DNA of 64,000 nt from Arthrobacter sp. TPD3018 (GTDB lineage: Bacteria; Pseudomonadota; Alphaproteobacteria; Sphingomonadales; Sphingomonadaceae): assembly GCA_003075315.1 (NCBI GenBank), contig QDFQ01000001.1, positions 657,870 through 721,869 on the forward strand. The letters run 5' to 3'. A model generated the notes under the pieces. That model searched no databases and was not told the origin of the DNA. It saw only the letters and a program-made list of their open reading frames with translations. Within the stretch, counting starts at the first letter, position 1; each line of letters opens with the position of its first letter. A program made the translations under genes and the position numbers. Shown piece by piece: positions 44,015 through 62,381 of this stretch.

Positions 44015-45295
44015 TCAGCTGCCATAGCGGCGGCGCCATTTCGCATAGGCCGCGGCGACGTTTGCGCCGGTGGTGTTGAACCATGCGTAGCCGTTGCGGC
44101 GCTCCTCGCTGATATCGTTGACGTCGTCGTGGATCGACCGGTCGCGATCGCCGAATACCGGGCGTTCGGTGGTGGGGTCATAGAAGCGCGCCCATAACGT
44201 CCTGGCGCCGCGCTGATCGATCAGCCGCCTGCCACCCGGCGTGGTAGCATCCGTCCAGGCATGGTTTTCGATGCCATGGGCGGCGAACCAGACGGCGCCG
44301 GACGTGATTGCCTCGCGCATCGCCGGCGATGGGTCGGGTTCCTCCATCAGAAAGCGCAGCACCGCGGCGCTTTCGGCGGTGGCGAGCGCGATCGGTTCGA
44401 AATTGCGTGCGCCGACCGGGCGGAGCGTGAGCGGGTCGTATTGCTGCGCCCAGATCGTGCGCCGTCCGTTCACGACCACCTGGGTCGCGAGCAGCGTCGC
44501 CACCGCACGCGCCGCGGCCTCTCGCGCGGCGATGCGCAACGCCGGCGGCACGAAGCCATAGTCGCCGGACCCGGCCGCGGTACGCTGCAGCAGCGCGGTC
44601 GCCCGCAGCATCGCATCGTCGTTCAGCGTCAGCGCGTCGTGATAGCCGCCCTGTAACGGATAGACCTGCGGCCAGCCGCCCGATGGCTGCTGCGCCTGCA
44701 ACAGATAGCGGATGCCGTCGACGAAGGCGGTGCGATACCGCGCGCCGTCAGCGCCCGGCCGCCCGGCCTGCGCGCGCGCCAGAAAGGCGAGTTCGGTGGT
44801 CGTCGCATCGTTATCGATCGTACCCACGAAGCCCCAGCCGCCCGCAAGATCGGCGGCCGCATGCGCGCCGGCCTTGCTATCGAAGGGGATGTACATCTGG
44901 CCACGGACGCGGGCCGGAGCGCTGCGATCCTGATTCTTGCCCCAGCCGCCCGTGGGCGTCTGGAAGCTGACGATATTGTCGGCGATCGCGCGCGCGGCGT
45001 CGCCGGCATACCAGGCCGGTTCGCGATCGAGCGGCATGGTCTTGATCTTGCCTTCGGGCGGCGGCGCCGGAATCGCGGCGAGGCCCTGCCGTTCGGCGGC
45101 CAAAGCTGCTTTGTCGCGCGCCATCGCGGCGGTCGAACGCGCGATATAGTCTGCCCAGGCGGTCCGCTGCACCGGGGGCAGGGCGCCCAGTCGGTCGATG
45201 GTCAGGGACGGGGGCGGCGCCATATGCCCGATCACCGTCGCGGCTGCCGGGACCATGAATGTGGTCAACACACACGCCAGAACAAAGCCCTTCAT
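44015..45295 (-). CDS. pelA: Pectate lyase, PL10 family
   Basis: 426 residues from ATG 45295, set by GGAGAGG upstream. A Sec signal peptide (KGFVLACVLTTFMVPAAA) precedes the PL10 catalytic domain: GGWGKNQDR, GTIDNDATTTELAFLA, SGGWPQVYPLQGGYHDALTLN, and GARTLWARFYD with DISEERRNGYAW toward the end. It cuts polygalacturonate by beta-elimination, yielding 4,5-unsaturated ends, outside the cytoplasm. The upstream operator at 45347 overlaps its promoter, so it should be controlled with the hexuronate genes. Confidence 0.93.
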   Translation of the reverse strand: MKGFVLACVLTTFMVPAAATVIGHMAPPPSLTIDRLGALPPVQRTAWADYIARSTAAMARDKAALAAERQGLAAIPAPPPEGKIKTMPLDREPAWYAGDAARAIADNIVSFQTPTGGWGKNQDRSAPARVRGQMYIPFDSKAGAHAAADLAGGWGFVGTIDNDATTTELAFLARAQAGRPGADGARYRTAFVDGIRYLLQAQQPSGGWPQVYPLQGGYHDALTLNDDAMLRATALLQRTAAGSGDYGFVPPALRIAAREAAARAVATLLATQVVVNGRRTIWAQQYDPLTLRPVGARNFEPIALATAESAAVLRFLMEEPDPSPAMREAITSGAVWFAAHGIENHAWTDATTPGGRRLIDQRGARTLWARFYDPTTERPVFGDRDRSIHDDVNDISEERRNGYAWFNTTGANVAAAYAKWRRRYGS

Positions 45296-45332: not shown

Positions 45333-45361
45333 ATCGTGCCAGTTAATGACACCGGTGACAA
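45333..45361 (-). promoter_or_regulatory. pelA promoter containing LacI-type operator
   Basis: On the minus strand TTGTCA (45361-45356) and CACGAT (45338-45333) are 17 bases apart, a plausible -35/-10 pair with a weak -10. The operator TGACACCGGTGACA (45347-45360) overlaps the -35, so binding should repress. Confidence 0.55.
45347..45360. promoter_or_regulatory. LacI-family operator site 1 (pelA)
   Basis: TGACACCGGTGACA, a palindrome with one mismatch from TGACACCGGTGTCA and a central CG, as LacI-family proteins usually bind. One of six related sites between 45 and 63 kb. Confidence 0.7.
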
Positions 45362-45443
45362 TAAACGCTTGCGACTTTCTCCGAAATGAATAGCTTCACC
45401 CCTGCCATCAGAGTTCGACGGGACCATTGGCAAGGAGGGGGCG

Positions 45444-45695
45444 ATGACAGATAGTATGGCGAAACTACAAAGACTTAAGTTGTTACGTCATGCTTGGCGC
45501 GGGCCGAAAGATGCCGCGGCTGGGGCGACGGCCTCTCCACTCTCCGCATCGCCCTTCAGGCCGAAAACAACTTGCTATGACACCGGTAACAAACGCTTTT
45601 TAGCTGCGGTGACGCGTTATGCCGCCCGTTTCGAGCGCGTGCGAATCGCAATCGCACCGGCGCCCGCACGGCGCGTCCCTCACGCACATATCTGA
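45444..45695 (+). CDS. Possible small ORF with strong ribosome site
   Basis: 83 codons from ATG 45444, preceded at the ideal distance by AAGGAGG, one of the best ribosome sites in the window. The product (MTDSMAKLQRLKLLRHAWRG start) is basic, has no signal peptide or span, and matches nothing I know. The second LacI-type operator lies inside the frame, so the ORF may be a remnant or a leader rather than a real gene. Confidence 0.25.
   Translation: MTDSMAKLQRLKLLRHAWRGPKDAAAGATASPLSASPFRPKTTCYDTGNKRFLAAVTRYAARFERVRIAIAPAPARRVPHAHI
45578..45591. promoter_or_regulatory. LacI-family operator site 2 (large TonB receptor)
   Basis: TGACACCGGTAACA, 192 bases before the receptor start. TTGCTA just before it could be the -35 of the receptor promoter, giving the same layout as at pelA. 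Confidence 0.65.
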
Positions 45696-45782
45696 CCGGT
45701 GACGGGGCTGCGGCCCCGCGCCGGACGCACGTCGACAAGGCCGGGTCCCATGAGGTCGCCGGCCATATCCTGGGAGAAGATG

Positions 45783-48700
45783 ATGACCTGCTCGACCATG
45801 CCCTTCCTCAAACTCGGGGCGTCGCTCGGCGCGCTGTCGCTTGCCAGCCTGTTTGCCGGATCGGCGCAGGGACAGGCCACCCCGATCGCCCCGGCGCAAC
45901 AGGCCGCTCCGGTCGCGACCAGCGGCACTCCCGCGCCGACCCATGCCGACGGCAAAGCATCGGGCACTCACGAAGCCCAGGCGAAGGTCACGCATACGGC
46001 AGCGACCGTCGGTGGCCAGAAGGGCGCGCACGCCGACAATTTCGATCCGACCCAGGATATCGTCATCACCGGCTTCCGCGGATCGATCCAGAATTCGCTC
46101 AACCAGAAGCGTTATTCGGACGTGCAGATCGATGCGATCAACGCTCAGGATATTGCCGATTTTCCGGACGCCAATCTGGCGGAGTCGCTCCAGCGCCTGC
46201 CCGGCGTGTCGATCGATCGCGACAACGGCGAAGGGCGCGGCATCACCGTTCGCGGCCTGGGCGGCGATTTCAACCGCACGCGCCTCAACGGGATCGAGGC
46301 GCTGTCCACGGCGGGATCAAACGATTCGGGCACCAGCCCCAACCGCAGCCGCAGCTTCGATTACTCGACCTTCGCCTCCGAATTGTTCAGCGCACTGAAG
46401 GTGCAGAAAACCGCGTCGGCGGAAACCGACGAGGGCTCGCTCGGCGCGACGATCGATCTGGAGACGGGCAAACCCTTCGATTTCAAGGGGACGCGCATCG
46501 GCGGATCGGCGACCGCCAGCTATAATGAGAACAGCAAGAAGGCCAATCCGCGCCTTGCTGGGCTCGCCTCCTTCCGCTTTGGGGCGGACAAGAGGATGGG
46601 GCTGCTCGTGTCGGGCGCGTACAACAGGACCGACAATATCATCGACCAGTATAACCGCGGCGTCGGCGCTTCGGACTATCTGTACCGCAGCAGCCAGTTC
46701 GTCGGCGAAGGGACGCCGCAACGCGCCGGCTTTTCGGCGCCGGTCGGCGCGATCAATTATGCCAATCCCGACGCAACGGCCTTCCAGACGGGATCGGATC
46801 CGACGGCCTATGCCAAGCTCTACCCGGGCGCGCCGTACAATACGCCGGGTCGGTTCGACGATTCCACGGTGCGTATTCCCGCTCTGCCGTCGCTGACGCA
46901 CCAGGTCGTGCGCAACCAGCGCCTGGGCCTCACCGCGGCCTATCAATGGGACGTGACCGACAAGACGCGCATCTCGATCGACGGGCTCTATTCGCGCTTC
47001 CACAACAGCAGCGAAAACGACCAGCTCTCGCCGGTCGGGCTCAATCGCAACAATACGAGCGCCGCCTACAACACGGCCGCGGGGCGGCTGACGCCGGCGG
47101 CGGCACGTGCCTCTTATCCGGGGCTTTGCACCCCGGCGGCAGGCAGCGACATCGCCGTGTCGCAGGATTGCGGCCAGTCGCTGTACGGGACGAAGCCGGC
47201 GTTCGGCACGGCGCTCAACGCGCAAGGGCAATTGGTATCCTCGGTCCTCGGCACTGCGGCGGTGGTGCCGGGCGCGACCAACCCCAGCAATGCCAATATC
47301 TTCTCGACCAACCCCCATAATCTCGACCCGTATGACTATTACAACAATCCGAATTCGGTCGGGTATATTCCGTCGAGCAACGGCCTTGCCTATCGCGGCC
47401 AACTGATCGGTCGGCCGAGCGTCGACGTCCTGGACGCGAATGTGACGAACGGGCTGGCCGATTATCTGGTCCTGCGTAACGTCGATATGCGATCGGCGGT
47501 CGATTATTCGGAATATACGACCAAGTTCTGGCAGGGCACGTTCCGCCTGGATCAGGAATTTACCGACAATTTCAAGATGACCGCCATCTACGGCCGGTCG
47601 AAGTCGGTAAACTACAGCACCGGGCTGCTCGTCGAATTCAATCGTATGGATTCGCCCCAGAACTTCGTGTACGATGACCGTGCCCACGGCGACATGCCAT
47701 TGCTCGACTTCGGGTTCGACGTCGCCGATCCGGCGAACTGGACGACGGTGAAGGGCTTTTCGGCGATCCGCCACTATGAACGCTACGTCAGCAACACCTA
47801 TCAGGCGATGCGCGCCGATTTCGACTGGCGGGTCAACGATCAGTTCAACATCGGCTTCGGCGGTACGCTCCGACGCTTCGGTTTCTTCACGTCGCAGGGC
47901 GAGCGCAACCTTGATACGCTCAACCCGACGCTGCTGGAGGCGGGGTCGACCACCGCGGCGAACAGCAAGATCGTGTCGTTCGGTCAGGGCCTGCAGACGC
48001 CGGCAGGCACCGTGTCGCGTTTCCTCGTTCCCGACCTTGCCAAATTCAACGACCTGCTCGGCTTCCAGTGCGACTGCATCAACAAATATGGCGACTGGCG
48101 TCTGACCACCAAGCGCAATGGCGGGTCGGCGACCTATGGCGTCGACGAATATGACAAGGGGCTCTACCTCCAGTTCGATTTCAACACGGAGATTTTCGGC
48201 CGCTCGCTACGCGGCAATGCGGGCACGCGCGTCGCCTTCACCGACGTGACGTCGATCGGGACGTCGCAGGCGGGGCGTCCGATCGTCGGGCGGAACAGCT
48301 ACACCGACTGGCTGCCTTCGATGAACCTCAATTACGAGATCGTCCGCAACCTCATCCTGCGGCTCGGCGTGTCGAAGGTGATGGCGCGCCCGCTGCTGGG
48401 CAATCTGTCCCCCACGATCACCTCGATCTCGATCCCGAGCAACGGCGACAATCAGGGCGCCTCGTTCACCATCGGCAATCCCAAGCTCGCGCCGTTCCGG
48501 TCGACCAACATCGACCTTAGCGCCGAATGGTATTTCACGCGCAGCAGCCTGTTCTCGGTTGCGGTGTTCAAGAAGGACGTCGAGAATTTCCCGCAGACGG
48601 TGCTGTTCGCCGCGCCGTTGTCGCAATTCGTCGACGATACGACGCGCGCCGCGATCCGCGCGCAATATACCAACATCAATCAGCTTGCCTATCTCGACAA

Positions 48701-49328
48701 CAACAATCCCTTCATCGCCCGCCAGTATCGCGATGCGCCGGGCGGTTACATCAAAGGCATAGAGATCAATTTTCAGCAGAACCTCACGTTCCTGCCGTGG
48801 GTATTCCGCAACTTCGGCGTGCTCTTCAACTACACGCACATCAAATCGGAGCTGAACTACATCCTCGATCCGGGCGCGGTGTCCGGGACCGGCGTGACGA
48901 TCCGGCCGCAGCTGTTGGGCAAGGGCCCGTTCCTCGGCGTCTCGCCGGACGCGATCAACGCGACCCTGTTCTACGAGACCAAGGGGTTCCGCGCCCGCGT
49001 GTCGCTGGCACAGCGGGCGGGCTACAGCACGACCTATCCGCTGGCGGCGGGATCGTGCAGCCCGGGCCTGATCACCGTCGGCGGCGGCAGCGTCGAAAGC
49101 GTCGGCTGCGACAGCCCGTTGATCAATGACTTCGCCTACAGCCGGGCGACGACCAACGTCGATGCCTCGCTCAACATCAACCTGATGAAGGGACTGTCGA
49201 TTTCGGCTGAGGGGCTGAACCTGACCAACCAGACCAGCAATCGCTACGCCTATTCCGGGCAGGAGGCGGTGTCGCAATATGGCAGCTCGGGCCGCGTCTA
49301 TCGTCTGGGCGCGCGCTTCAGCTTCTGA
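45783..49328 (+). CDS. Large TonB-dependent receptor (TonB-Xanth-Caul type), probable pectin oligomer importer
   Basis: 1181 residues from ATG 45783 (GGGAG 6 bases before; ATG 45780 is adjacent). A Sec signal (FLKLGASLGALSLASLFAGS) is followed by about 60 residues rich in Ala, Thr, Pro and His, then the plug domain with the subfamily start DIVITGFRGSIQNSLNQKR, DIADFPDANLAESLQRLPGV and RGITVRGLGGDFNRTRLNGI. The barrel ends with RVYRLGARFSF. This subfamily is the main TonB route for plant oligosaccharides in Caulobacter and Xanthomonas. Its place between pectate lyase and GH43 and the upstream operator suggest oligogalacturonide uptake. Confidence 0.92.
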   Translation: MTCSTMPFLKLGASLGALSLASLFAGSAQGQATPIAPAQQAAPVATSGTPAPTHADGKASGTHEAQAKVTHTAATVGGQKGAHADNFDPTQDIVITGFRGSIQNSLNQKRYSDVQIDAINAQDIADFPDANLAESLQRLPGVSIDRDNGEGRGITVRGLGGDFNRTRLNGIEALSTAGSNDSGTSPNRSRSFDYSTFASELFSALKVQKTASAETDEGSLGATIDLETGKPFDFKGTRIGGSATASYNENSKKANPRLAGLASFRFGADKRMGLLVSGAYNRTDNIIDQYNRGVGASDYLYRSSQFVGEGTPQRAGFSAPVGAINYANPDATAFQTGSDPTAYAKLYPGAPYNTPGRFDDSTVRIPALPSLTHQVVRNQRLGLTAAYQWDVTDKTRISIDGLYSRFHNSSENDQLSPVGLNRNNTSAAYNTAAGRLTPAAARASYPGLCTPAAGSDIAVSQDCGQSLYGTKPAFGTALNAQGQLVSSVLGTAAVVPGATNPSNANIFSTNPHNLDPYDYYNNPNSVGYIPSSNGLAYRGQLIGRPSVDVLDANVTNGLADYLVLRNVDMRSAVDYSEYTTKFWQGTFRLDQEFTDNFKMTAIYGRSKSVNYSTGLLVEFNRMDSPQNFVYDDRAHGDMPLLDFGFDVADPANWTTVKGFSAIRHYERYVSNTYQAMRADFDWRVNDQFNIGFGGTLRRFGFFTSQGERNLDTLNPTLLEAGSTTAANSKIVSFGQGLQTPAGTVSRFLVPDLAKFNDLLGFQCDCINKYGDWRLTTKRNGGSATYGVDEYDKGLYLQFDFNTEIFGRSLRGNAGTRVAFTDVTSIGTSQAGRPIVGRNSYTDWLPSMNLNYEIVRNLILRLGVSKVMARPLLGNLSPTITSISIPSNGDNQGASFTIGNPKLAPFRSTNIDLSAEWYFTRSSLFSVAVFKKDVENFPQTVLFAAPLSQFVDDTTRAAIRAQYTNINQLAYLDNNNPFIARQYRDAPGGYIKGIEINFQQNLTFLPWVFRNFGVLFNYTHIKSELNYILDPGAVSGTGVTIRPQLLGKGPFLGVSPDAINATLFYETKGFRARVSLAQRAGYSTTYPLAAGSCSPGLITVGGGSVESVGCDSPLINDFAYSRATTNVDASLNINLMKGLSISAEGLNLTNQTSNRYAYSGQEAVSQYGSSGRVYRLGARFSF

Positions 49329-49362
49329 TCTTCCCCCATCTCCCCGGGGGCGACTTCGGCTT

Positions 49363-49378
49363 CGTGTACCGGTAACGG
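49363..49378. promoter_or_regulatory. LacI-family operator site 3 (GH43 gene)
   Basis: CGTGTACCGGTAACGG keeps the ACCGGTAAC core but its left half is degenerate. 84 bases before the GH43 start. Confidence 0.45.
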
Positions 49379-49461
49379 TATGCGGAGTCGCTTTCTTTGG
49401 GAAAAGGCGTGCCAATGCAACGGTATGACGTGTCGCTCCGCCGCCCGATCCGAGACGCTGC

Positions 49462-51066
49462 ATGACCGAGTATAATCGGCGCGATGCCTTCGGTCTTGCC
49501 GCGCTAGCCGGTGGCGGCGCTCTGATTCCCGCCACTCCGGCCGCCGGAGCCGGAGCGGCAGCCAGGCGGTCGCCCTGGCGCCGCGGGTACGAAGGGCAGC
49601 GGATCGCCGATCTCGGCGATGGTCGCTTCCTCAATCCGCTGATCGGCGGCGACCGGCCCGATCCCGCGATCCTGAAGGACGGCGCGGATTATTACATGAC
49701 CTTTTCCAGCTTCGACAGCTATCCCGGTCTGACGATCTGGCACAGCCGCGACCTGGTCAATTGGCGCCCGCGAAAGGCGGCGCTGACCCGCAACATCGGG
49801 TCGGTCTGGGCGGTCAGCCTCGACAAGCATGCCGGCCGCTACCTGCTGTACATCCCGGTCAAGGCGAGTCCCCGGAACGACATCTACGTCATCCACGCCG
49901 ATCATATTGATGGCCCCTGGTCCGACCCGATCAGCCTCGGCCTCCACGACCATATCGATCCCTGCCACGCCGTGGGCGAAGATGGTTCGCGCTGGCTGTT
50001 CATGTCCGGCGGCGACCGCATCCGCCTGGCCGACGATGGCCTGTCGACGGTTGGATCGGTCGAGCATGTCTACGATCCCTGGCGTTACCCCGACGATTGG
50101 GACGTCGAAGGCTTCAGCCCCGAAGGCCCCAAGATCCATCGCCACGGCGATTGGTTCTACATGATCACCGCGGTCGGCGGCACCGCCGGACCGCCGACGG
50201 GGCATATGGTGATCATCGCGCGATCGCGCTCGATCCACGGCCCCTGGGTCAACGATCCGGGCAATCCCGTCGTCCGCACCGTTTCCAACGACGAGACATG
50301 GTGGTCCCGCGGCCATGCTAGCCTCGTCGAGGGGCCGGACGGCAGCTGGTGGTCGGTGTATCACGGCTATGAAAACGGGTTTTGGACGCTGGGGCGGCAG
50401 GTGCTGCTCGATCCCGTACGCTGGACCGCCGATGGCTGGTTCCGCATGCTGGGCGGCGACCTGTCGAAGCCGCTGCCCAAACCGAAAGGCGGTGAGGGCG
50501 GTCCGCACGGGCAGCCGCTGTCGGACGATTTTACCCGGCGGCTGGCGCTCGGCGCGCATTGGAATTTCTTTCGCCCCGGCCCTGCCGAACAGGAGCGGGT
50601 GCGGGTCGACGCGGGCACGCTGTATCTGGCGGCACGTGGCACGGCACCCGTGGATTCCGCGCCGTTGCTGTTGACCGCCGGCGATCAGGCCTACGAATTC
50701 CAGTGCGATGTGGAGATTTCGCCGGGTGGTACGGCGGGTCTGATCCTGTTCTACGACGACAAGCTCTATTGCGGGCTCGGCTTCGACGAAAAACGCTTCG
50801 TCACCCACCAATATGGCAATGAACGCGGGCGCCCCGCCAATCCGCACGGACGCCGCATGCTGATCCGCATCGCCAACACACGGCACATCGTCGCGATCCA
50901 TACGTCGGGAGACGGCGGTGCCACCTGGCAGCGGTTCGATCGGGGGATGGAGGTGTCCGGCTACCACCACAATGTCCGCGGCGGTTTCCTGATGCTGCGG
51001 CCGGGGCTGTATTCGGCCGGCGCGGGCGAGGCGCGCTTCCGCGATTTCCGGTTCCGCGCGCTGTAA
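49462..51066 (+). CDS. Glycoside hydrolase family 43 protein
   Basis: 534 residues. The N-terminus has a twin-arginine style signal (NRRDAFGLAALAGGGALIPA). The five-bladed propeller catalytic domain shows the GH43 base Asp67 in GGDRPDPAILKDG and the general acid Glu in EGFSPEGPKIHRHGDW, with GPPTGHMVIIARS and WWSVYHGYENGF further on. From about residue 350 a beta-sandwich of the GH43 C-terminal kind follows. Family activities are alpha-L-arabinofuranosidase, beta-xylosidase or galactosidase; in a pectin locus arabinan or side-chain trimming is the likely job. Convergent with the DUF885 gene. Confidence 0.9.
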   Translation: MTEYNRRDAFGLAALAGGGALIPATPAAGAGAAARRSPWRRGYEGQRIADLGDGRFLNPLIGGDRPDPAILKDGADYYMTFSSFDSYPGLTIWHSRDLVNWRPRKAALTRNIGSVWAVSLDKHAGRYLLYIPVKASPRNDIYVIHADHIDGPWSDPISLGLHDHIDPCHAVGEDGSRWLFMSGGDRIRLADDGLSTVGSVEHVYDPWRYPDDWDVEGFSPEGPKIHRHGDWFYMITAVGGTAGPPTGHMVIIARSRSIHGPWVNDPGNPVVRTVSNDETWWSRGHASLVEGPDGSWWSVYHGYENGFWTLGRQVLLDPVRWTADGWFRMLGGDLSKPLPKPKGGEGGPHGQPLSDDFTRRLALGAHWNFFRPGPAEQERVRVDAGTLYLAARGTAPVDSAPLLLTAGDQAYEFQCDVEISPGGTAGLILFYDDKLYCGLGFDEKRFVTHQYGNERGRPANPHGRRMLIRIANTRHIVAIHTSGDGGATWQRFDRGMEVSGYHHNVRGGFLMLRPGLYSAGAGEARFRDFRFRAL

Positions 51067-51085
51067 CACGCGCGCGCCGCGGCGC

Positions 51086-52276
51086 TTATCCTGTGATCTG
51101 TTCGGTCCGGCGCCGGCCGAAGGCGAGCAGGGGCGTATGGAACTGCGGCCACCGATGGCGCGCGCGCGGGCGCGCGGCGGTGATGCGCAGGGGCACCCAC
51201 GCCTCCGCGGCGCGCAATCCCGGATCGCTGGTGATCCGCACCACGTCGCGGTCGATGGGGGCAAAATAAACGGATTCGCCAAGGCTCTCGCGTATCCGGG
51301 CCGCCGCGCGGTCCGCGTCGACGCCACGCACATGCAGATCGATGTCGGCAAGGCCACGAGTCACCCGAAACAGCATCCAATGGATGTGCCCCAGCATGGT
51401 CGCGGGATCGCTGAACAGGCCGGCGTCGGCCATCAGCTTTTCGGCATAGACGCCCCAGCCTTCGCTGAAGCCGGCTGCATAGCGGAGCCGCAACGGATGG
51501 GGGTGGGCGAGCGTCTCCAGCGGCATCTGCGCCATATGGCCGGGCAGAAGCTCATGCGCGACGACGCTGGGCAAGGAAAAGCGCGGGCGGCGCCGGATGT
51601 CCTTCAGGTCGACGACGTACAGGCCCTGCACGCCCGGGGCGGGCAAAATGCGGTAACCGCCCTTGCCGGCGGCGATCTCGGCGGCGTCGAGCGGGCGGAC
51701 GTCGACCGACAGGCATGCCGCGGGCAGCGACCCGATCAGGCGAGGCATTTGCGGGCGGATCGTCGCCAGCGTCGCGCGCATCGCCGCCACCGCCGCGTCT
51801 CGCCCGGCGGCATCGTCGGCGAACAGCCAGCGCGGGTCGTGCCACAGCGCCTCGAACCGGGCGCCCGTCGTGCCATCCGCGATGCCCACCCGGTCGAACA
51901 GGCGCGCCGCACGCGCTTCCAGCGAGGCTTTGGCGGCGGCGAGGTCGCGCGCGACGATATCCAGCCGCGCGTCGTTGCCCGCGACCCGTTGCGTCTGCAA
52001 CGAAAAGCGCGTCGCCGCATCGCTCGCGTTCGTCAGGGCGGCGTCGATCGCAAGGCCGGCGCGGGCGGCTTGCAGGTCGAGGCGGCGGCCGGTGCTTGCG
52101 CCAGCTGCGGATAGCGGGGCGAGCAGGTTCAGCGCCTGGGCGGCCGGCAGCGTCGCCGCCGTGTCGAGCGCGGCGCCGATCGTCTGGTCGTCGTCCGTTC
52201 GGGCGAAGACCGGCGCGGCGAGGGCGGAGGCCGCTCCCGTACCGAGCGCAGCAAGGACCTGCCGCCTGCGCATCAT
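51086..52276 (-). CDS. DUF885-family probable metallopeptidase
   Basis: 396 residues. Tat-type signal (RRRQVLAALGTGAASALA). The DUF885 metal site is intact: HELLPGH at 241-247 and SEGWGVYAEKL with Glu272. DUF885 proteins are usually about 550-600 residues, so this is a short member missing much of the N-terminal region. The start overlaps the stop of the LamG gene by 4 bases, so it is translated with it as the last gene of the exuT operon. What a peptidase-like protein does in a hexuronate operon is unclear. Confidence 0.8.
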   Translation of the reverse strand: MMRRRQVLAALGTGAASALAAPVFARTDDDQTIGAALDTAATLPAAQALNLLAPLSAAGASTGRRLDLQAARAGLAIDAALTNASDAATRFSLQTQRVAGNDARLDIVARDLAAAKASLEARAARLFDRVGIADGTTGARFEALWHDPRWLFADDAAGRDAAVAAMRATLATIRPQMPRLIGSLPAACLSVDVRPLDAAEIAAGKGGYRILPAPGVQGLYVVDLKDIRRRPRFSLPSVVAHELLPGHMAQMPLETLAHPHPLRLRYAAGFSEGWGVYAEKLMADAGLFSDPATMLGHIHWMLFRVTRGLADIDLHVRGVDADRAAARIRESLGESVYFAPIDRDVVRITSDPGLRAAEAWVPLRITAARPRARHRWPQFHTPLLAFGRRRTEQITG

Positions 52277-55200: not shown

Positions 55201-56076
55201 CGCAAACTCGACCTTGCGCACGCGGGTGACCGGCGCGTCGAGCACCGGCGGCAAGCTTTTGTCCCAGCCGTAGCGGTGCAGCCACGCCTGCCGCTCCCCT
55301 TGCGGATCGGCGGGGGGCAGGGGGCCTGCTTCCGCCTTCGCCGCCAGTGCGGCAATATTGGCGGGCGACAGCATCCGGTCATAGACGCGGATATCGTCGA
55401 CATCGGACCCGCGCATGAAATTGTAGCGGCTCTGCACCTGATGCGGCGCCATTACGCGCCCCGCGAGGCCGAACTGGTCGAGGCCGGTGTCGAGGTCGGC
55501 GGTCTGATCCTTGCGCGCGACCTCCTCGCCATCGACGTAGAGCGTCACGCCCTTGGTCTCGTCCCACGCGAAGGCGATATGCTGCCATGCCTTCGCATCG
55601 GGGATGGTCGGCATGCGCCACGACACGCGGATGCGCGACAGGTTCGTGTCGGTCACGAAGGCGTCGAAGCCGTGGCCGTTCCAGTCGATACGCAGGAACG
55701 CCATGTCCCAGCTGGTGTGATCGGCGAAGCCGGCGCGGAAGATCACGAACGGCGCCTCGCCCAGCGGTTCACGCGCGCGCCAGAAAAAGGAGAGGGTGCC
55801 GCGTGCCCCGCGCATGTTGCCCGGCGCTCGCCACGCGACATAGCCGTCGTCCGCCCAATGCGCCGCGCCGCCGATCGCGCCGTCGGGCACGATGCGCAGG
55901 TTGGCGCGGAAGTTCGGCACCGCTTCCCCGTGCGCGACCGTCGCGTCGAAGCCGGTGTCGAGCGGCGCGTGGAACAGCAGGCCGGGCGATGTCTCCTGCG
56001 CCTGCGCCGTGGTCGCCGCGAGGGCAGCGGTCGCCAGCGCGAGCGCGGAGGTCAGCGAACGCCTGCCGCCCCTCAC
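52273..56076 (-). CDS. Large secreted LamG-domain protein, probable new carbohydrate-active enzyme
   Basis: 1267 residues starting at GTG 56076, whose GTGA overlaps the exuT stop. A signal peptide (LTSALALATAALAATTAQA) leads into a LamG/concanavalin-like domain (residues about 30-230; GTLSFFWRAREP, WQHIAFAWDETKGVTLYVDG). Beta-rich modules follow to about 640, then a helical region that looks like an alpha/alpha toroid (DLKYVRRFVDWWIDHRQVPY, GDFGGGISDDTDLTQQWPGL, YEEGLNSDAERLYLNWGEP), then a C-terminal beta-sandwich. I do not recognise a characterised family. The repeated Asp/Glu-rich loops in the toroid suggest a glycosidase or lyase acting on a pectin component. Confidence 0.75.
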   Translation of the reverse strand: MRGGRRSLTSALALATAALAATTAQAQETSPGLLFHAPLDTGFDATVAHGEAVPNFRANLRIVPDGAIGGAAHWADDGYVAWRAPGNMRGARGTLSFFWRAREPLGEAPFVIFRAGFADHTSWDMAFLRIDWNGHGFDAFVTDTNLSRIRVSWRMPTIPDAKAWQHIAFAWDETKGVTLYVDGEEVARKDQTADLDTGLDQFGLAGRVMAPHQVQSRYNFMRGSDVDDIRVYDRMLSPANIAALAAKAEAGPLPPADPQGERQAWLHRYGWDKSLPPVLDAPVTRVRKVEFADAKDLKEWMWKGVDGIAETTWPGVYNRSRLPGRDDYFELPDWNVYVEGGKRYDLTVPAGERFNRVELRGAAYGSLSWTGDGKDTILATRPKGVVRSVDQFEPRTGGTLHFTNVMQEQPIQELWAYDIGAGTEPAGSFKLDYTIRADMAPTLAALAPLNAFIAGRYAPDERATVVAMPTAGVKAAVGAGAAGGDGTVARPAGMAPIVHILIPASLGDALPDQPVARAFDYGWQNLRDGLDGIAIDLPALPGTKPVALDIRVKDPIWPERDMIDLSVTVPPGQKRTLWLDLRDRILPNDSLYLSIAASDPAFSAKSLDGARIRLVFKPRAQAITEHVADRFNQVKDNWAFLVEEHTASKRMALYRRLFADITDLLRVGPDHKEAQAYWADIDYRPENLPPFTQPVPTKGEPLWAFRQLEDLKYVRRFVDWWIDHRQVPYGDFGGGISDDTDLTQQWPGLALMGVEPDKVNASLRALSDAVFTNGMRVNGLGYITSDELHAYEEGLNSDAERLYLNWGEPKAVERLMETTRALQGVILKNPAGHLHFASSWYGGRKMYRDAPWAWQKPYAFTVMHAPILIGLYNGNPAARGLVTGVIDGWMAHGKQDAKGVWTYPNEIHWDSDAERAGDGGGISTPLQSAWSAWRFTGDAKYLRPLTSRIAKSGPTALAEMNENAFAVLPEGTSYRDAIAAAAKDDPFALYTRWDATGDMTALERLHADAIADKARHEYMYTEGHWWSDRVEQPNEILQRERLGGIALRRNQTWPGNTVSWRFAEADAAGDVAILMPNATPDHFRVIAYNRTDRVQRAEMTTWNVTAGQWTMQRATSRDDGKTLVPDGGATTLPLERSLATTVAFAPHTTTVYDFTLAKPIAPVEQRPDIGIGRDDVVRNGRGLTVTVHSLGAQPTTGGTLTVRGADGAVLATSAIPPLAAPTDLRPRTATIRIAASPAKATSVEIALPNDAPEVTRLNNRVVLDAAR

Positions 56077-57359
56077 AACGCGTCGACCCGCGCGAGGCGT
56101 GGGCTGAGCAGATGGACGACGCCGACCGCGACCAGATAGACGCTGCCCGCCACCGCGAAGATGATCGTGTAGCTGCCCGTCGTCTGCAGGATGTAGCCGG
56201 TGAACTTCGCCATCATCATGCCGCCGATTGCCCCGACCGTGCCGCCGATGCCAACCACCGATCCGACCGCCGCCCGCGGGAACATGTCCGATGGGATGGT
56301 GTAGAGGTTGGCCGAGAAGGCCTGGTGCGCCGCGGTGGCCAGGCCGACGATCGCGACCGCCAGCCACAGATGGTCGACATATTGCGCGAAGAAGATCGGT
56401 GTCACCAGCAGCGCGCAGGCGAACATCGTCCATTTGCGCGCCGCATTGGCGGTGAAGCCGCGCTTCATCAGCCGCGACGACGACCAGCCGCCGGCGATGC
56501 TGCCGAAGTCGGAGATCAGATAGATGACGACCAGCGGCGGCCCGAAGCTGACGAGGTCGAGGTGATAGGTCTTGGCGAGGAAATCGGGCGTCCAGAAGAG
56601 GAACAGCCACCAGATGGGATCGATCAAGAACTTGCCGAGCGCATAAGCCCAGGTCTCCTGATAGCCGAGCAGCTTCAGCCAGCCGATCTTCTGGACCGGG
56701 TCGGCGGGATCGCTTTCGATATAGGCGAGCTCGGCCGCGGACACTTTCGTGCTTTCGCGCGGCCGGCGGTACAGCGCGATCCAGGCGACCAGCCACAACA
56801 AGCTGACGGCACCCGTCACGATGAACGCCATCCGCCAGCCGAAGGCGAGCGTGATGACCGGCACGATCAGCGGCGTCACCACGGCGCCGACGTTGGCGCC
56901 GGCGTTGAAGATGCCGGTCGCGAGCGCGCGCTCCTTGGCGGGGAACCATTCGGTCACCGATTTGAGGCCCGCAGGGAAGTTGCCGCTTTCGCCGATGCCC
57001 AGAATGAAGCGCGCCACCGAGAATTGAAACGCCGAGCCGACGAAGCCGCACAGCGTATGACCGAGCGTCCAGATGACGAAGGCGATCGAATAGCCGATCC
57101 GCGCGCCGACGGCGTCGACGATCCGCCCGAAGCTCAGATAGCCGATCGCATAGGCGGCCTGGAACCAGAAGATGACGTCGGCATAGGTCGTCTCCGACCA
57201 GCCGAGTTCGGCCGAGATCGTCGGCTTCAGCACCCCGATCATCTGGCGGTCGACATAGTTGATCGCGGTCGCTGCGAACAGCAGGCCGCAGATCACCCAG
57301 CGATAGCGCCCGACGGTGGCGGGTGTGGCCGTGACCTCCGGCGCTTCGATCGTTGCCAT
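56073..57359 (-). CDS. exuT: Hexuronate MFS transporter
   Basis: 428 residues with twelve membrane spans, of the ACS/ExuT family of the major facilitator superfamily. It begins RYRWVICGLLFAATAINYVD, has the DRQMIGVLKPTISAELGWS segment typical of ExuT and GudP, and the GIGESGNFPAGLKSVTEWFP loop. It would import galacturonate or glucuronate with protons. The stop overlaps the LamG gene start, and the hydratase-family gene lies 59 bases upstream. Confidence 0.93.
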   Translation of the reverse strand: MATIEAPEVTATPATVGRYRWVICGLLFAATAINYVDRQMIGVLKPTISAELGWSETTYADVIFWFQAAYAIGYLSFGRIVDAVGARIGYSIAFVIWTLGHTLCGFVGSAFQFSVARFILGIGESGNFPAGLKSVTEWFPAKERALATGIFNAGANVGAVVTPLIVPVITLAFGWRMAFIVTGAVSLLWLVAWIALYRRPRESTKVSAAELAYIESDPADPVQKIGWLKLLGYQETWAYALGKFLIDPIWWLFLFWTPDFLAKTYHLDLVSFGPPLVVIYLISDFGSIAGGWSSSRLMKRGFTANAARKWTMFACALLVTPIFFAQYVDHLWLAVAIVGLATAAHQAFSANLYTIPSDMFPRAAVGSVVGIGGTVGAIGGMMMAKFTGYILQTTGSYTIIFAVAGSVYLVAVGVVHLLSPRLARVDAL

Positions 57360-57418
57360 CGGTCTGTCTCTCCTGTGTCAGCGGCCTCTTGGCGGGCCGT
57401 TTGTCTTGGGATGGCGCG

Positions 57419-58213
57419 TTATTGCGCGGTGATCGTGCAGTGGATCGACAGGCGGCCGTCGAACCGCGCCTCCACCCGGTCGCCCACGGCGACCTGATGG
57501 ACGCCGGTGACCGCACCGGTCGAAATCCACTGTCCCGCCGTAACCGGGATATTGCGTGCGGCGAGATGCTGGAACAGGAAGCGCGCCGCGCCGAAGGGGC
57601 CGTCGAGCATGTCGGCGGCGATGCCGGTGCCGATCTCCGCATCGTTGATGTAGAGTGCGACCGGCCAGCAATTGAGGTCGGTATCCTGCCAGCCGTCGAT
57701 CGCGGCGCCGATGACGAGGCCGTTGTTGTTGCCAAAGTCCGAAATGGTGACGGTCGGCCCGTTGGTATTGATCCCGGGGAAGGGGGAACTCGCGATCTCG
57801 ATGCCCACATGCACCGCATTGATCAGCGCGCGCGCGTCCGCCATGGAAAATTCACGCTGCGCCGGATCGGGCGCACGGCCGATGCGCAGGAGGAATTCCG
57901 CTTCCGCTGCGCCGAATCCATCGGCGAAGATCGGCATCTCGCAATGTTCGGTGTTGGTGACCTGATCGGCGAAGATCGGGCCGGCCAGGCGGTCGAACCC
58001 TTCGGCGGGCGGGTTGATCCGGCCGACTTTCCAGCCGGCAACCGGACGATCGCTGAGCGCCAGCGCGGCATCCTGTACCGCATAGGCGTTCGCCAGATCG
58101 TGCGGAATCGTGCCTGGATAGTCTGGCAAAGCCGTGGCGGTCCGTCGCGCCTCCACGAACGCCTGCGCAACCTGCGCGATATCGCTGTCCGGCTTCACCG
58201 CAGCCCCTCCCAT
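57419..58213 (-). CDS. FAH/2-keto-4-pentenoate hydratase-family protein
   Basis: 264 residues from ATG 58213 (no clear ribosome site). The hydratase/FAH fold is shown by GWKVGRINPPAEGFDRLAGP, an AEAEFLLRIGR metal-site segment and GVEIASSPF then the SDFGNNNGLVIG stretch. Family members hydrate 2-hydroxypentadienoate or decarboxylate and cleave 2-oxo acids with Mg. It is not an established enzyme of the galacturonate isomerase pathway. The operator at 58241 is directly upstream and the gene precedes exuT, so its product likely acts on an uronate-derived keto acid. Confidence 0.85.
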   Translation of the reverse strand: MGGAAVKPDSDIAQVAQAFVEARRTATALPDYPGTIPHDLANAYAVQDAALALSDRPVAGWKVGRINPPAEGFDRLAGPIFADQVTNTEHCEMPIFADGFGAAEAEFLLRIGRAPDPAQREFSMADARALINAVHVGIEIASSPFPGINTNGPTVTISDFGNNNGLVIGAAIDGWQDTDLNCWPVALYINDAEIGTGIAADMLDGPFGAARFLFQHLAARNIPVTAGQWISTGAVTGVHQVAVGDRVEARFDGRLSIHCTITAQ

Positions 58214-58240
58214 GTCATTCGTCGTTATCGGATCGATATG

Positions 58241-58256
58241 GGAAACCGGTGTCATT
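58241..58256. promoter_or_regulatory. LacI-family operator site 4 (hydratase-exuT unit)
   Basis: GGAAACCGGTGTCATT, 28 bases before the hydratase start, in the 63-base gap after the reductase gene. The right half GGTGTCA is perfect. Confidence 0.6.
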
Positions 58257-58276
58257 GGCAAGCATGGCGAGCGTCC

Positions 58277-59707
58277 TCACGCGAAAAATCGCGGCCAGTC
58301 CGCCGATGCGGCGGCAGTCGCGGCAGAGACGATCGCTGCGCGCACCTCGGCGTCGGTGGCGATGGCGGACGGTACGAGATGGCCGGCCGCGATCAGCGCG
58401 TCGATCACCGCCGCGACGTCGCGTTGCTGCGCGATCGACAGCAGCGTTTCGGCCGCCGGATCGACGATCGCCGTATCCGTGCGTGCGCGCGCCATCAGGA
58501 ATGCGACCCAAGCGCCGAGGGCCCGAACCACATGGGCTGGCATGCGCCCCGCCTGCCGGTTGGCGACCAACGTATCGCCGAGGCGATAGGGCAGCTTCTG
58601 CGAGCCGTCCTGCGCGATCTGGTCCAGCCGGTGGACGATCGCGGGATTGCGGAACCGCGTCAGGATCGCTGCTGCATAGGCGTCGAGGTCGAAGCCCGCC
58701 ACCGGGGTCAGCATCGGCGCGATATCCTGTCGGATCATCGCGGCGACGAATGCGGCGAGGGGGCCATCCGCCATCGCTTCGGCCACGCTCGTCGCGCCGC
58801 GCAGCAGGCCGATATAGGCAAGCGTCGAATGCGCGCCGTTGAGGATGCGCAGCTTGGCCCGCTCGTAGCTGGCGACATCCTGCGTCAGCGTCGCACCCAC
58901 GCTGCCCAAGGCGGTGATGGCGTCCGCCCCGACGTCCTCGATCACCCATTGCACGAAGGCCTCGCGCTGGACGGGGGCGTCATCGTCCAAGCCGATCGCG
59001 GTACTCACGTCGGTGAGCAATGTCGCATCGCTTGCCGGCGTGATCGAATCGACCATCGTGGAGGGGACGCGCACAGTCTCGGCGATCCATGCTGCCAGTT
59101 CAGGGTCGCTGGCGGCGGCGAAGGCGACGAGCGCGGCGTGCAGCTTACGCCCGTTGCTCGCCAGATTGTCGCAAGGCATCGCCACGAACGGAGCGACGCC
59201 CGCTGTCCGGCGCGCGGCCAGCCCCGCCACCAGCCAGCCGACGATGCTGCGCCGCGGCTCGCCCGCCAGATCGTGGACGATATCCGCGTGGGCCATGTCA
59301 AGAGTGCCATCGGCCTGCAGACAATACCCCTTTTCGGTCACCGTCATCGTCACCAGCCGGACGTTAGGGTCGGCCAGCAGCGCCGCGACATCTGTATGAT
59401 CGTCCGGCCCCAAGAAGCGTTTGTGCGCCCCGATGATGCGCATCGCCGGTTCGGCGTCGCGCACCACGAGCGTATACAGGCCATCCTGAGCGGCCAATGC
59501 TTCTACCGTGCCGGCGCTGCGTAACGATACGGCTGCAATGCCCCAATTCGGGTCGCGCGCCAGCAGATCGTCGATGTAGGTCGCTTGATGCGCGCGGTGG
59601 AACGCGCCCGGACCGAAGTGCACGATGCCGATCTTGCTCTCCGGCCGCTCGCGCGGCGCCGCGATAGCGGCCGGGACCTGAGGCAGGGTGGCGCGGGATA
59701 GTCTCAT
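58277..59707 (-). CDS. uxuB: Fructuronate/tagaturonate reductase (mannitol dehydrogenase family)
   Basis: 476 residues of the polyol-specific long-chain dehydrogenase family: VHFGPGAFHRAHQATYIDDL (NAD site; residues 29-48), VTEKGYCLQADG, a VAMPCDNLASNGRKL segment and the catalytic Lys pattern in KLRILNGAHSTLAYIGLL. FHRAHQ is the fructuronate reductase/mannitol dehydrogenase mark rather than that of E. coli UxaB. With altronate dehydratase next door it may reduce tagaturonate to altronate in vivo, or both. Start overlaps uxaA stop by 4 bases. Confidence 0.88.
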   Translation of the reverse strand: MRLSRATLPQVPAAIAAPRERPESKIGIVHFGPGAFHRAHQATYIDDLLARDPNWGIAAVSLRSAGTVEALAAQDGLYTLVVRDAEPAMRIIGAHKRFLGPDDHTDVAALLADPNVRLVTMTVTEKGYCLQADGTLDMAHADIVHDLAGEPRRSIVGWLVAGLAARRTAGVAPFVAMPCDNLASNGRKLHAALVAFAAASDPELAAWIAETVRVPSTMVDSITPASDATLLTDVSTAIGLDDDAPVQREAFVQWVIEDVGADAITALGSVGATLTQDVASYERAKLRILNGAHSTLAYIGLLRGATSVAEAMADGPLAAFVAAMIRQDIAPMLTPVAGFDLDAYAAAILTRFRNPAIVHRLDQIAQDGSQKLPYRLGDTLVANRQAGRMPAHVVRALGAWVAFLMARARTDTAIVDPAAETLLSIAQQRDVAAVIDALIAAGHLVPSAIATDAEVRAAIVSAATAAASADWPRFFA

Positions 59708-61203
59708 AACGTGACGCCTCGTTTCCAGATCGCGATCTCGCGCTCGCCATTGCGTTCGGCGGCAGTGGTCTCGCCCGACGCAACTGCGACGATGCGCGCG
59801 AGCAAGGCCTCGGATGCCGCGCCGAACCCGGTGTCGAGCACCGCACCTGCGTCAAAATCGACCCAGCCGGGCTTGCGCGCTGCAAGGTCGCTGTTCGATG
59901 CGATCTTGATCGTTGGCACCGGGAAACCCAGCGGCGTACCGCGCCCGGTGGTGAACAGGATCGCGGTCGCCCCCGCGGCGGCAAGGGCGGTGGAGGATAC
60001 CGCATCGTTACCCGGCGCCTCCAGCAAGGTGAGGCCGGTCTGCGTGGCCTCCTCGCCGTAACCGATCACCGCGCCCACGCGGGCCCGTCCGGCCTTCTGC
60101 ACCGCGCCGAACGATTTTTCCTCCAGCGTCGTGATCCCGCCGGCGACGTTGCCGGGGGAGGGGTTTTCCGACACCGGCTCGCCGTGATCGAGGAAATAAC
60201 GTTTGAAGCCGTTCACCACGCCGACGATCCGGTCGAACGCCTGCGGCGCGGCGGCACGATCCATCAGCGTCTGTTCGGCGCCGAAAATCTCGGGGATTTC
60301 CGTGAAGACGACGCGCCCGCCCGCCGCGACGACGCGGTCGCTCATCTGCCCGACCAGCGGGTTGGCTGTCAGGCCCGACAGGCCGTCCGATCCACCGCAT
60401 TTCACGCCGAGGACCAGATCGCTTAGCGGGCACGGCGTGCGTTCCGTCCGCGCCGCCTCGGCAAGCGCGACGACCGCAGCGATGCCCTCTTCGACCTCGT
60501 CGGCGCTCAGCTGAGCGGTCAGCGTGCGAATCCGGCCGCGATGCGCTGCGGGAACCGCGTCGAGCAGCGCCGCAACCTGATTCTCTTCGCAACCCAGCCC
60601 GACGATCAGGACCCCGCCGGCATTGGGATGGCTCGCCAGCCCGGCGAGGATCGCGCGAGTGCCGCCTAAGTCATCGCCCAGCTGCGAACAGCCGTGCGGG
60701 TGGGTGAAGGCGTGGACGCCATCCACCGCATCGCCGACCTGCGCCGCAGCGCCTGCCGCTATCCGCTGCGCTGTCCGCGCGACGCAACCGACCGTCGGCA
60801 GCACCCAGATCTCGTTACGCGTCGCGACCCGCCCGTCCGCCCGGCGATAGCCCATGAAGGTCGGCGCCTCTACCTGTGGCAAGGTCGCCGCGGGGGTCGG
60901 CGCGTAGCGATAGTCCAGCGTCGCATCGAGCGCGGTCGACAGATTGTGGCTGTGAACGTGTGCGCCGGGCTGGATGGCGGCCGTGGCATGGCCGATCGGA
61001 AAGCCGTATTTGAGGACTGGGGTTCCCATGTCCATCGGCAGCAGCGCGACCTTGTGACCCCGCGCGATATCGTCGGCGAGGGTGATCACGCTCCCGATCG
61101 CGTCTCCGGCGGCCCCATCGATCGTCAGCGTGTCGCCGGCGCGTGCGTCGTCCAGCATCGTGGCGACCGTATCGGTCGGCGCCACCTTCCATGCCCTCGC
61201 CAT
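59704..61203 (-). CDS. uxaA: Altronate dehydratase
   Basis: Converts D-altronate to 2-keto-3-deoxygluconate. 499 residues from ATG 61203 with GAGAGG in front. The N-terminal SAF domain has GAHVHSHNLS (residues 81-90), and the main domain the metal-binding family pattern GYRRADGRVATRNEIWVLPT, THPHGCSQLGDD, GLGCEENQV, GVKCGGSDGLSGLTANPL and PGNDAVSSTALAAAGA. Iron-dependent by family. First gene of a two-gene unit with uxuB, divergent from lacI with a shared operator between them. Confidence 0.95.
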   Translation of the reverse strand: MARAWKVAPTDTVATMLDDARAGDTLTIDGAAGDAIGSVITLADDIARGHKVALLPMDMGTPVLKYGFPIGHATAAIQPGAHVHSHNLSTALDATLDYRYAPTPAATLPQVEAPTFMGYRRADGRVATRNEIWVLPTVGCVARTAQRIAAGAAAQVGDAVDGVHAFTHPHGCSQLGDDLGGTRAILAGLASHPNAGGVLIVGLGCEENQVAALLDAVPAAHRGRIRTLTAQLSADEVEEGIAAVVALAEAARTERTPCPLSDLVLGVKCGGSDGLSGLTANPLVGQMSDRVVAAGGRVVFTEIPEIFGAEQTLMDRAAAPQAFDRIVGVVNGFKRYFLDHGEPVSENPSPGNVAGGITTLEEKSFGAVQKAGRARVGAVIGYGEEATQTGLTLLEAPGNDAVSSTALAAAGATAILFTTGRGTPLGFPVPTIKIASNSDLAARKPGWVDFDAGAVLDTGFGAASEALLARIVAVASGETTAAERNGEREIAIWKRGVTL

Positions 61204-61226
61204 GCCATCCTCTCGACATTCGTTTC

Positions 61227-61240
61227 GGTAACCGGTGTCA
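61227..61240. promoter_or_regulatory. LacI-family operator site 5 (uxaA / lacI divergent region)
   Basis: GGTAACCGGTGTCA lies 24 bases before uxaA and 77 before lacI. One site could control both directions, including autoregulation. Confidence 0.7.
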
Positions 61241-61316
61241 GATGTGTCCTGTCCGGACGATCTTTGCAAGGGTGCGGGACTGGCGGGATTGTTTCAGCCG
61301 CTTTACACCCGATGCC

Positions 61317-62345
61317 ATGCAGAAGACCGGCCAGCCGACGATCAACGATGTGGCGCGCGTCGCCGGCGTATCGAAGAAGACCGTCAGCCGGGTCATCAAC
61401 CGCTCGCCATTGCTCAACGAAGACACGCGGAAACGTGTCGAAGAGGTCATCGCGGATCTCAGCTACATTCCGAACCCGCAAGCGCGGGCGCTGGCGCTGC
61501 GCCGCAATTTCCTGATCGGCCTCGTTCATGACAATCCCAATGCGCAGACGGTGATGAACGTCCAGCAGGGCATGCTGGAAGCGCTGCACGATACCGAATT
61601 CGAAATGGTGGTGCGCCCGCTCGATCGCGGCTCGGCGACGATGCTGGAGGATCTGCGTCACTTCCTCGAACGCCAGCGTTTGTTCGGCGTGTTGCTGATG
61701 CCGCCGATCAGCGAGAACGATTCGGTGGCGAAGCTGTGCGACGATATCGGTTGCCGTTACGTGCGCATGGGGTCGGCGGTGCTGGATGCGGCCGACCATA
61801 TGGTCGCCTCCAACGACCGAGAGGCAGTGCAGGGCGCGGTCGCCTATCTGATAGAACAGGGGCATCGCCGCATCGGCCTGGTCGCAGGCCCGCACGGTTT
61901 CCGCTCGGCGCGGGAGCGGCGGCAGGGGTTCGAGGACGCGCTGGCGGAGGCGGGGATCGCGCTGCCGCGATCAATGATCGCTGATGGCAATTATACCTTC
62001 GATTCGGGGCTGGTCGCGGCGGAGCGGCTGCTCGATGTCGTGCCGCGCCCGACGGCGATCTTCTCCTCGAACGACGAAATGGCCGCCGGCGTGATCCATG
62101 CCGCCCGCCAGCGTGGGCTGGAGATTCCGCGTGACCTTTCGATCATCGGCTTCGACGACACGCCGATCGCCGCGCATGTCTGGCCCCCGCTGACGACGGT
62201 GCGCTGGCCGATCGCCTCCATGGCCCGATCGGCGGCGCTCAAACTGATCGCAGGCGGCATGGAGCAGGAACCGGACGTGGAAGAACCCTCGCTCTTCCTG
62301 TCGACGCTGATCCGCCGTGCATCGGTCGCCGCGCCCCGCGAATGA
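61317..62345 (+). CDS. LacI-family transcriptional regulator of the hexuronate locus
   Basis: 342 residues from ATG 61317, the family start; no good ribosome site precedes it. Residues 8-28 are the helix-turn-helix (TINDVARVAGVSKKTVSRVI), with the hinge NPQARALALRR near 52-62 whose Leu would wedge into a central CpG, matching the CG centre of the operators around it. The rest is the periplasmic-binding-like effector domain (EQGHRRIGLVAGP, TAIFSSNDEMAAGVIHAARQ and IIGFDDTPIA). It is placed between uxaA and uxaC. Likely inducer is a pathway intermediate such as an uronate. Confidence 0.92.
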   Translation: MQKTGQPTINDVARVAGVSKKTVSRVINRSPLLNEDTRKRVEEVIADLSYIPNPQARALALRRNFLIGLVHDNPNAQTVMNVQQGMLEALHDTEFEMVVRPLDRGSATMLEDLRHFLERQRLFGVLLMPPISENDSVAKLCDDIGCRYVRMGSAVLDAADHMVASNDREAVQGAVAYLIEQGHRRIGLVAGPHGFRSARERRQGFEDALAEAGIALPRSMIADGNYTFDSGLVAAERLLDVVPRPTAIFSSNDEMAAGVIHAARQRGLEIPRDLSIIGFDDTPIAAHVWPPLTTVRWPIASMARSAALKLIAGGMEQEPDVEEPSLFLSTLIRRASVAAPRE

Positions 62346-62367
62346 GACTGGGGGTTGCGTCACGATT

Positions 62368-62381
62368 TGACACCGGTTACC
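62368..62381. promoter_or_regulatory. LacI-family operator site 6 (uxaC)
   Basis: TGACACCGGTTACC, 43 bases before uxaC. A perfect TTGACA (62367-62372) overlaps its left half and could be the -35 of the uxaC promoter. Confidence 0.7.

Follow-up and report, generated by a model that had tools for sequence, protein, structure and literature searches.

We describe a candidate LacI-family regulon for the use of pectin and hexuronates in a 64-kb stretch of bacterial DNA (the window; C1:657870-721869 of a 4.01-Mb genome in 56 contigs, with genomes, contigs and loci cited under our handles G, C and L). Five predicted operators of one palindromic type lie ahead of a pectate lyase gene, a TonB-dependent receptor gene and a set of hexuronate genes, and a lacI gene is located among them. 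The local LacI is quite probably the repressor of this regulon, acting through TGACACCGGTTWCC-type operators within core promoters, both in the window and at a second block headed by another TonB receptor gene. At the level of sequence there is support for the operator sites, for how well they are conserved, polarised and tied to the regulator, and, at most promoters, for a fixed distance to a -35-like box. The source strain is a Sphingomonas or a close neighbour of that genus, because its LacI is 100% identical to the LacI of S. aquatilis DSM 15581 and the 9.3 kb around lacI show 94% DNA identity.

In the proposed mechanism, a LacI dimer would bind to the operators and, when substrate is absent, block RNA polymerase at the promoters of pelA, of the TonB receptor gene together with GH43, of a presumed hydratase-exuT-LamG-DUF885 unit, of uxaA-uxuB and lacI itself, and of uxaC-kduI-kduD. 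Outside the window, two or three sites ahead of the second TonB receptor gene, beside carboxylesterase, kdgK, kduD and kduI genes, would bring these under the same control. An intermediate derived from pectin would then release LacI; hexuronate intermediates that the regulated enzymes have in common would be the obvious choice.

The operators were located with a matrix trained on relatives: from each of 77 named loci the best site upstream of lacI was sought, and 76 yielded one, 60 of these sites being distinct and none coming from this genome. Training sites were chosen for an ACCGGT core plus at least five of the seven letters of TGACACC, so that the core is presupposed by the matrix. It was applied to the window and to a further 157 kb of this genome. 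The five top-scoring window positions are 58241, 62368, 61227, 45578 and 45347 (scores from 29.2 to 19.1), followed by 53425 (12.9), which lies within a coding frame; the maximum in the reversed window is 7.6. An earlier note on this DNA had proposed six operators, and all six ACCGGT cores are indeed located where it placed them. Five of the six are the five best matrix positions, and the remaining one, 49363, was rejected as a GH43 operator on its score of 1.25 and its window rank of 30. The gap between 12.9 and 19.1 bears out the view of that note that the window holds no further sites, and its sole local LacI-family gene is one of six genes for LacI-type helix-turn-helix (HTH) proteins in the genome, the only one in the window. 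The form TGACACCGGTGTCA, which it had preferred, has no exact copy in the whole 4.01-Mb genome, and the operator is better written as TGACACCGGTTWCC. The core alone is common, with 26 copies in the window and 1065 in the genome against 917 in a reversed control. A plain scan of the window for TGACACCGGTGTCA with up to three mismatches is weak evidence for operators: it gave 6 matches against 2.30 expected, a number reached by 3 of 100 shuffles, and these take in 58697 but not 49363.

Conservation of the sites was assessed in the named loci. A strong site is present ahead of the hydratase gene in 74 of the 75 loci having this gene, ahead of uxaC in 42 of 44, and ahead of lacI in 73 of all 80. 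An ACCGGT occurs within 300 bp upstream of lacI in 79/80 loci (65/66 when non-redundant), which places an operator ahead of the regulator's own gene, as in the autoregulation that is usual, though not universal, among LacI/GalR factors; the next 6-base palindrome, CGATCG, is found in 56, and a coding control of 80 x 900 bases contains 34 copies of ACCGGT.

The lacI product has both domains of LacI/GalR regulators, the PF00356 HTH (64.3 bits; cut-off 27) and the PF13377 effector domain, which is like periplasmic binding proteins (139.2 bits). All 36 sequences read (this LacI and 35 orthologues) share the recognition helix VSKKTVSR, and the other five LacI-type proteins of the genome have different residue pairs at the KK position. 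Among 90 genus relatives, 49 encode an orthologue with at least 66% identity; two of them have second copies at 63-65%, and the remaining matches do not exceed 49%. One such second copy (65%) stands beside a second kduI in G018 (C1:3272079-3274039), which suggests a duplication of part of the regulon. The strict pattern TGACACCGGTDWC has on average 4.55 matches per genome with an orthologue and 0.54 without one, the reversed control giving five matches in total over all 91 genomes. At least two matches are found in 45/49 orthologue-bearing relatives and in 4/41 of the others, several of which are merely 79-85% complete; the latter figure becomes a strict 3/41 when the perfect palindrome of G006, scored on both strands by the pattern, is counted once. 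This cut was chosen after the counts were seen, and a rank test on the counts is independent of it. Finally, in the 30 of the 49 orthologue-bearing relatives with complete match lists, 87 of 123 matches are no more than 40 kb away from a lacI gene of this type (orthologue or second copy), as compared with about 2% expected, and 36 lie farther away. Taken with the conserved promoters, these results indicate that the LacI encoded at 61317-62345 very probably reads the operators.

The matrix of 60 distinct relative sites, selected for ACCGGT, describes an even operator of palindromic type with a central CG, in which one half is TGACACC and the opposite half, read outward, is GGWAACC. This layout agrees with the TGNNANCGNTNNCA operator backbone described for LacI proteins of the TVSR class in PMC2978694, a paper whose accessible text also discusses mixed half-sites. 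The 80 named loci contain 201 strong sites, of which 182 lie close to where a listed gene starts, and none of the 201 has two TGAYACC halves; the pelA and first-receptor sites are nearer to symmetry than the other operators of the window. Two sites in genomes without a detected orthologue are noted here in their own right. In G006 (C47:3137; L119:1490-1525), a perfect TGACACCGGTGTCA is flanked by genes for a class III CoA-transferase and a TonB receptor, and in the 83% complete G015 (C80:129168; L125:1490-1525), an operator-like site lies near the start of the ATP-type PEP carboxykinase gene, pckA.

The polarity of the operator is the one unusual trait of this regulon. In asymmetric sites, read toward the gene, the TG half comes first at the hydratase (75/75), uxaA (37/37), uxaC (42/42), kduI (14/14) and second receptor (11/13) promoters, counts that come from orthologous promoters and so amount to nearer five independent cases than 179. 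The reverse orientation at lacI (74/74) is to be expected of a site that serves a divergent catabolic gene as well. Among non-redundant promoters, a -35-like TTG begins 7 bases ahead of the site in 55/59 hydratase promoters, and a YATW box follows the 14-bp site immediately in 35/59; the TTG stands 13 bases ahead in 26/30 uxaC and 14/14 kduI promoters, and one base ahead in 6/8 second-receptor promoters. In the window itself, the site at 58241 has the hydratase arrangement and that at 62368 the uxaC one. With its distance to the TTG mostly fixed, the operator seems to sit on top of the core promoter, as would suit a repressor that acts simply by occlusion. With rather more doubt than belief, we propose that this unequal operator has been polarised by selection across the genus, with TGACACC upstream and GGTWWCC toward the catabolic gene, that operator and core promoter, with a -35-like box mostly at a fixed distance, have evolved as one element, and that the paired inward operators of the second receptor (about 146-163 bp apart) may support a loop for repression.

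For the genome as a whole, pattern searches were combined with a sequence model; the model, which gave scores to 150 of 1208 candidates, was built from 61 sites, the last being the window's own site at 45347, so that recovery of the latter is not independent. Exact TGACACCGGT occurs 9 times in 4.01 Mb and twice in the reversed control; five copies are in this locus, two are at the second receptor and two others lack a second half. The candidates C1:1196366 and C8:39944 (scores of 8.2 and 9.7) were rejected because their second half is missing. Over the full genome, TGACACCGGTDWC gave seven matches, five in the locus and two at the second receptor; the matrix site at C1:1528434 is outside both. 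The eight matches of the sequence model comprise four locus sites, three in the second-receptor promoter and C1:1528434. The second receptor (1011 residues; C2:409 kb) is encoded next to genes for a carboxylesterase, a kdgK-like PfkB kinase, KduD and KduI. Its promoter (L096:9195-9388) contains three operator-like sites, two strong and inward-facing at a distance of 148 bp and one weaker, and relatives have similar pairs 146-163 bp apart. Helical phasing, tested on 12 non-redundant pairs, gave p = 0.09 at a repeat of 10.0 bp, 0.06 at 10.5 bp and 0.04 at 11.0 bp, and looping at this promoter is therefore a guess only. With two strong sites and one weaker site on another contig, the locus is not self-contained in this assembly, contrary to the earlier note. 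The broader claim of a LacI regulon that unites outer-membrane uptake with secreted enzymes and catabolism has strong support from the genus comparison, except for the GH43 operator and for the link to pelA and the first receptor, which comes mainly from this genome.

The order from lacI through kduI-kduD-kdgK-carboxylesterase-operator-receptor is continuous in 7 of 19 fetched relative regions, and in two more without kdgK in place (9/19 in total). In S. aquatilis, uxaC-kduI-kduD-kdgK-carboxylesterase is unbroken. The full order of hydratase, uxuB, uxaA, lacI, uxaC and onward is found in 4/19, other arrangements being variable; three of the 19 have no kduI near lacI, and one further relative has only the carboxylesterase and receptor there. 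In our genome the kduI-kduD pair is present twice (L031:1746-3483, corresponding to window position 63876 onward, and L096:11969-13706), with 98.6% identity over 1738 bp and 24 mismatches, including up to 19 single Ns (18 scattered through one copy and a single one in the second), and the contigs of two close relatives end within the pair. The cluster was possibly split at this repeat by recombination, maybe recent, or by an assembly crossover or misjoin. Whichever the cause, the predicted operators mark both blocks as one regulon.

Several observations weigh against the proposed regulon or parts of it. The membership of pelA and the first receptor is supported mainly by this one genome and has little backing from relatives: pelA was found in 0/19 of the fetched regions, and homologues of the 1181-residue receptor, at 41-43% identity, in 3/19. 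The site at 45578 was not recovered by the whole-genome sequence model among the 150 candidates that it scored, and uxaA promoters show no fixed -35 offset, the best being shared by 8 of 33 non-redundant promoters. C1:1528434 (L101:9435-9452) scores 21.7, above both 45347 and 45578, and lies inside an open reading frame matching GDSL lipase and polysaccharide deacetylase; it could be a further target or a product of chance. Among orthologue-bearing relatives, G010 (66%) has no strict match, with TGTCACCGGTATCA preceding its uxuB, and neither of the two matches of G004 shares a contig with its lacI. Conversely, G006, G015, G025 and G066 have two to four matches (strictly one site in G006) and no orthologue, and the TonB receptor at the G006 palindrome matches none of the query proteins; a similar motif therefore has other readers. 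The genomes are related and the named loci overlap the genus genomes, so that the counts are not independent, which weakens the numbers and not the pattern.

That convenient copies of ACCGGT were picked from a genome with 67% G+C is hardly credible for the set as a whole. The core is indeed as common as the counts above indicate, the plain three-mismatch scan barely exceeds chance, and 49363 is such a copy, for which the chance reading stands; the other five sites, however, stand well clear of all other window positions under a matrix whose training was independent, and at three promoters the same type of site recurs in dozens of named loci. It is improbable, too, that the operators are real and mainly read by another regulator, e.g., a LacI paralogue encoded elsewhere, with the linked lacI a bystander or second reader. 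Against such a paralogue stand the KK recognition pair, which is unique to this LacI among the six LacI-type HTH proteins that leave room for it, and the number of matches, which tracks orthologue presence across the genus, although sites like those near pckA and a TonB receptor do occur in a few orthologue-free genomes.

Two overlapping circuits are also unlikely, if worth keeping in mind. This LacI would then read the mixed TG/GG catabolic sites, and a close relative the more symmetric sites of pelA and the 1181-residue receptor. The sites at 45347 and 45578 do have two TG-type halves, score 19-20 rather than 28-29, and serve the genes found in 0/19 and 3/19 relative regions, and two TGAYACC halves never occur together in the strong sites of the named loci. 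However, G078 and G046 contain sites with two TG halves within the same lacI cluster, TGACACCGGTTGAC precedes homologues of the receptor (42-43% identity) in both, and the six LacI-type proteins of our genome include no second KK regulator.

The family-level gene assignments of the earlier note were upheld by profile searches (Table 1), which place a TonB receptor, degradative enzymes, an inner-membrane transporter and a regulator together in the locus. GH43 is probably transcribed by read-through from the receptor gene. The hydratase-like protein gave no match in the Pfam search, and the large LamG protein has homologues, 60-77% identical, in 11 of the 19 fetched regions.

Table 1. Genes and operator sites of the pectin and hexuronate locus in window coordinates
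Feature	Position	Strand	Remarks
pelA, pectate lyase family	44015..45295	-	TIGR02474 and PF09492 above cut-off; start placed by Shine-Dalgarno-like sequence
Predicted operator TGACACCGGTGACA, two TG-type halves	45347..45360	+	Rank 5, score 19.1; about 50 bp ahead of likely pelA start 45295
Predicted operator TGACACCGGTAACA	45578..45591	+	Rank 4, score 20.2; about 190 bp ahead of TonB receptor start 45783
TonB-dependent receptor (1181 residues), TonB-Xanth-Caul subfamily	45783..49328	+	TIGR01782 above cut-off
Proposed GH43 site, rejected	49363..49376	+	Matrix score 1.25, rank 30
GH43	49462..51066	+	PF04616; begins 133 bp downstream of the receptor gene; lacks its own operator
DUF885 protein	51086..52276	-	PF05960
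Large LamG protein, about 1225 residues	52273..55950	-	PF13385 is the sole recognised domain; start not fixed
Major facilitator superfamily transporter, exuT-like	56073..57359	-	PF07690; best NCBIfam model below cut-off
2-keto-4-pentenoate hydratase-like protein	57419..58198	-	Weak NCBIfam and PDB matches; start from Shine-Dalgarno-like sequence
Predicted operator TGACACCGGTTTCC (minus-strand reading), flanked by CTTGCC and CATATC	58241..58254	-	Rank 1, score 29.2; precedes the hydratase-exuT-LamG-DUF885 unit
uxuB/uxaB-like oxidoreductase, mannitol dehydrogenase family	58277..59707	-	PF01232, PF08125; NCBIfam models below cut-off
uxaA-like altronate/galactarate dehydratase	59704..61203	-	PF20629, PF04295; NCBIfam galactarate dehydratase below cut-off
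Predicted operator TGACACCGGTTACC (minus-strand reading)	61227..61240	-	Rank 3, score 28.2; in the gap from uxaA (likely start 61203) to the divergent lacI (start 61317)
LacI-family regulator	61317..62345	+	PF00356 and Peripla_BP_3 (PF13377); recognition helix VSKKTVSR
Predicted operator TGACACCGGTTACC	62368..62381	+	Rank 2, score 28.2; between lacI and uxaC
uxaC, glucuronate isomerase	62425..63873	+	NF002794 above cut-off
kduI start	63876..64000	+	Gene extends past the window end; kduD next

Comparison with known systems refers to the accessible portions of the papers cited. The nearest known operator met in the literature searched is TGAAACCGGTTTCA of PtxS, a LacI-family regulator of Pseudomonas that responds to 2-ketogluconate and for which effector-released repression by promoter occlusion has been published (PMC3402500, PMC5902321). 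The two systems share LacI-family control of sugar-acid catabolism, a 14-bp operator with an ACCGGT core and TG outer bases, a site ahead of the regulator's own gene, and an operator in or near the core promoter. They differ in that the arms here are TGACACC and GGWAACC, which do not match TGAAACCGGTTTCA, and the targets are pectin and hexuronate genes rather than kgu and gad; the comparison is one of operators and targets. Local LacI-family sugar regulons, including those of glucuronate and galacturonate regulators, have been described by comparative genomics (PMC4052901, PMC5507952), and they likewise have even palindromic-type motifs with a central CG and autoregulated local regulators. The regulators discussed there are, however, from Bacteroides (UxaR, UxuR and KdgR) and Algoriphagus (UxuR2), and Sphingomonas is absent from the main text of both papers. 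Carbohydrate utilization loci containing TonB-dependent transporters (CUT loci) of Xanthomonas and aquatic bacteria, including a putative pectin locus with a receptor gene that polygalacturonate induces (PMC1790865), combine the receptor, secreted enzymes, inner-membrane transporter and regulator as the present locus does; a pectin LacI operator motif is not seen for them in the accessible portion of that paper. We recognised no description of this regulon in the open literature searched, a scope outside which most subscription papers and RegPrecise fall. Local, autoregulated regulons of LacI type that serve sugar acids are already an established kind, as are sugar loci with TonB receptors, and the present regulon is a new, well-conserved case among them.

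If the proposed regulation is correct, about half of the genus genomes searched would have a testable control circuit for pectin use, in which one operator spans functions from outer-membrane receptors to 2-keto-3-deoxygluconate kinase. One could then read the gene content of pectin loci off their operators, an approach illustrated by the block on the second contig, and the conserved hydratase-like and large LamG proteins, whose role is unassigned, would be tied to pectin metabolism.

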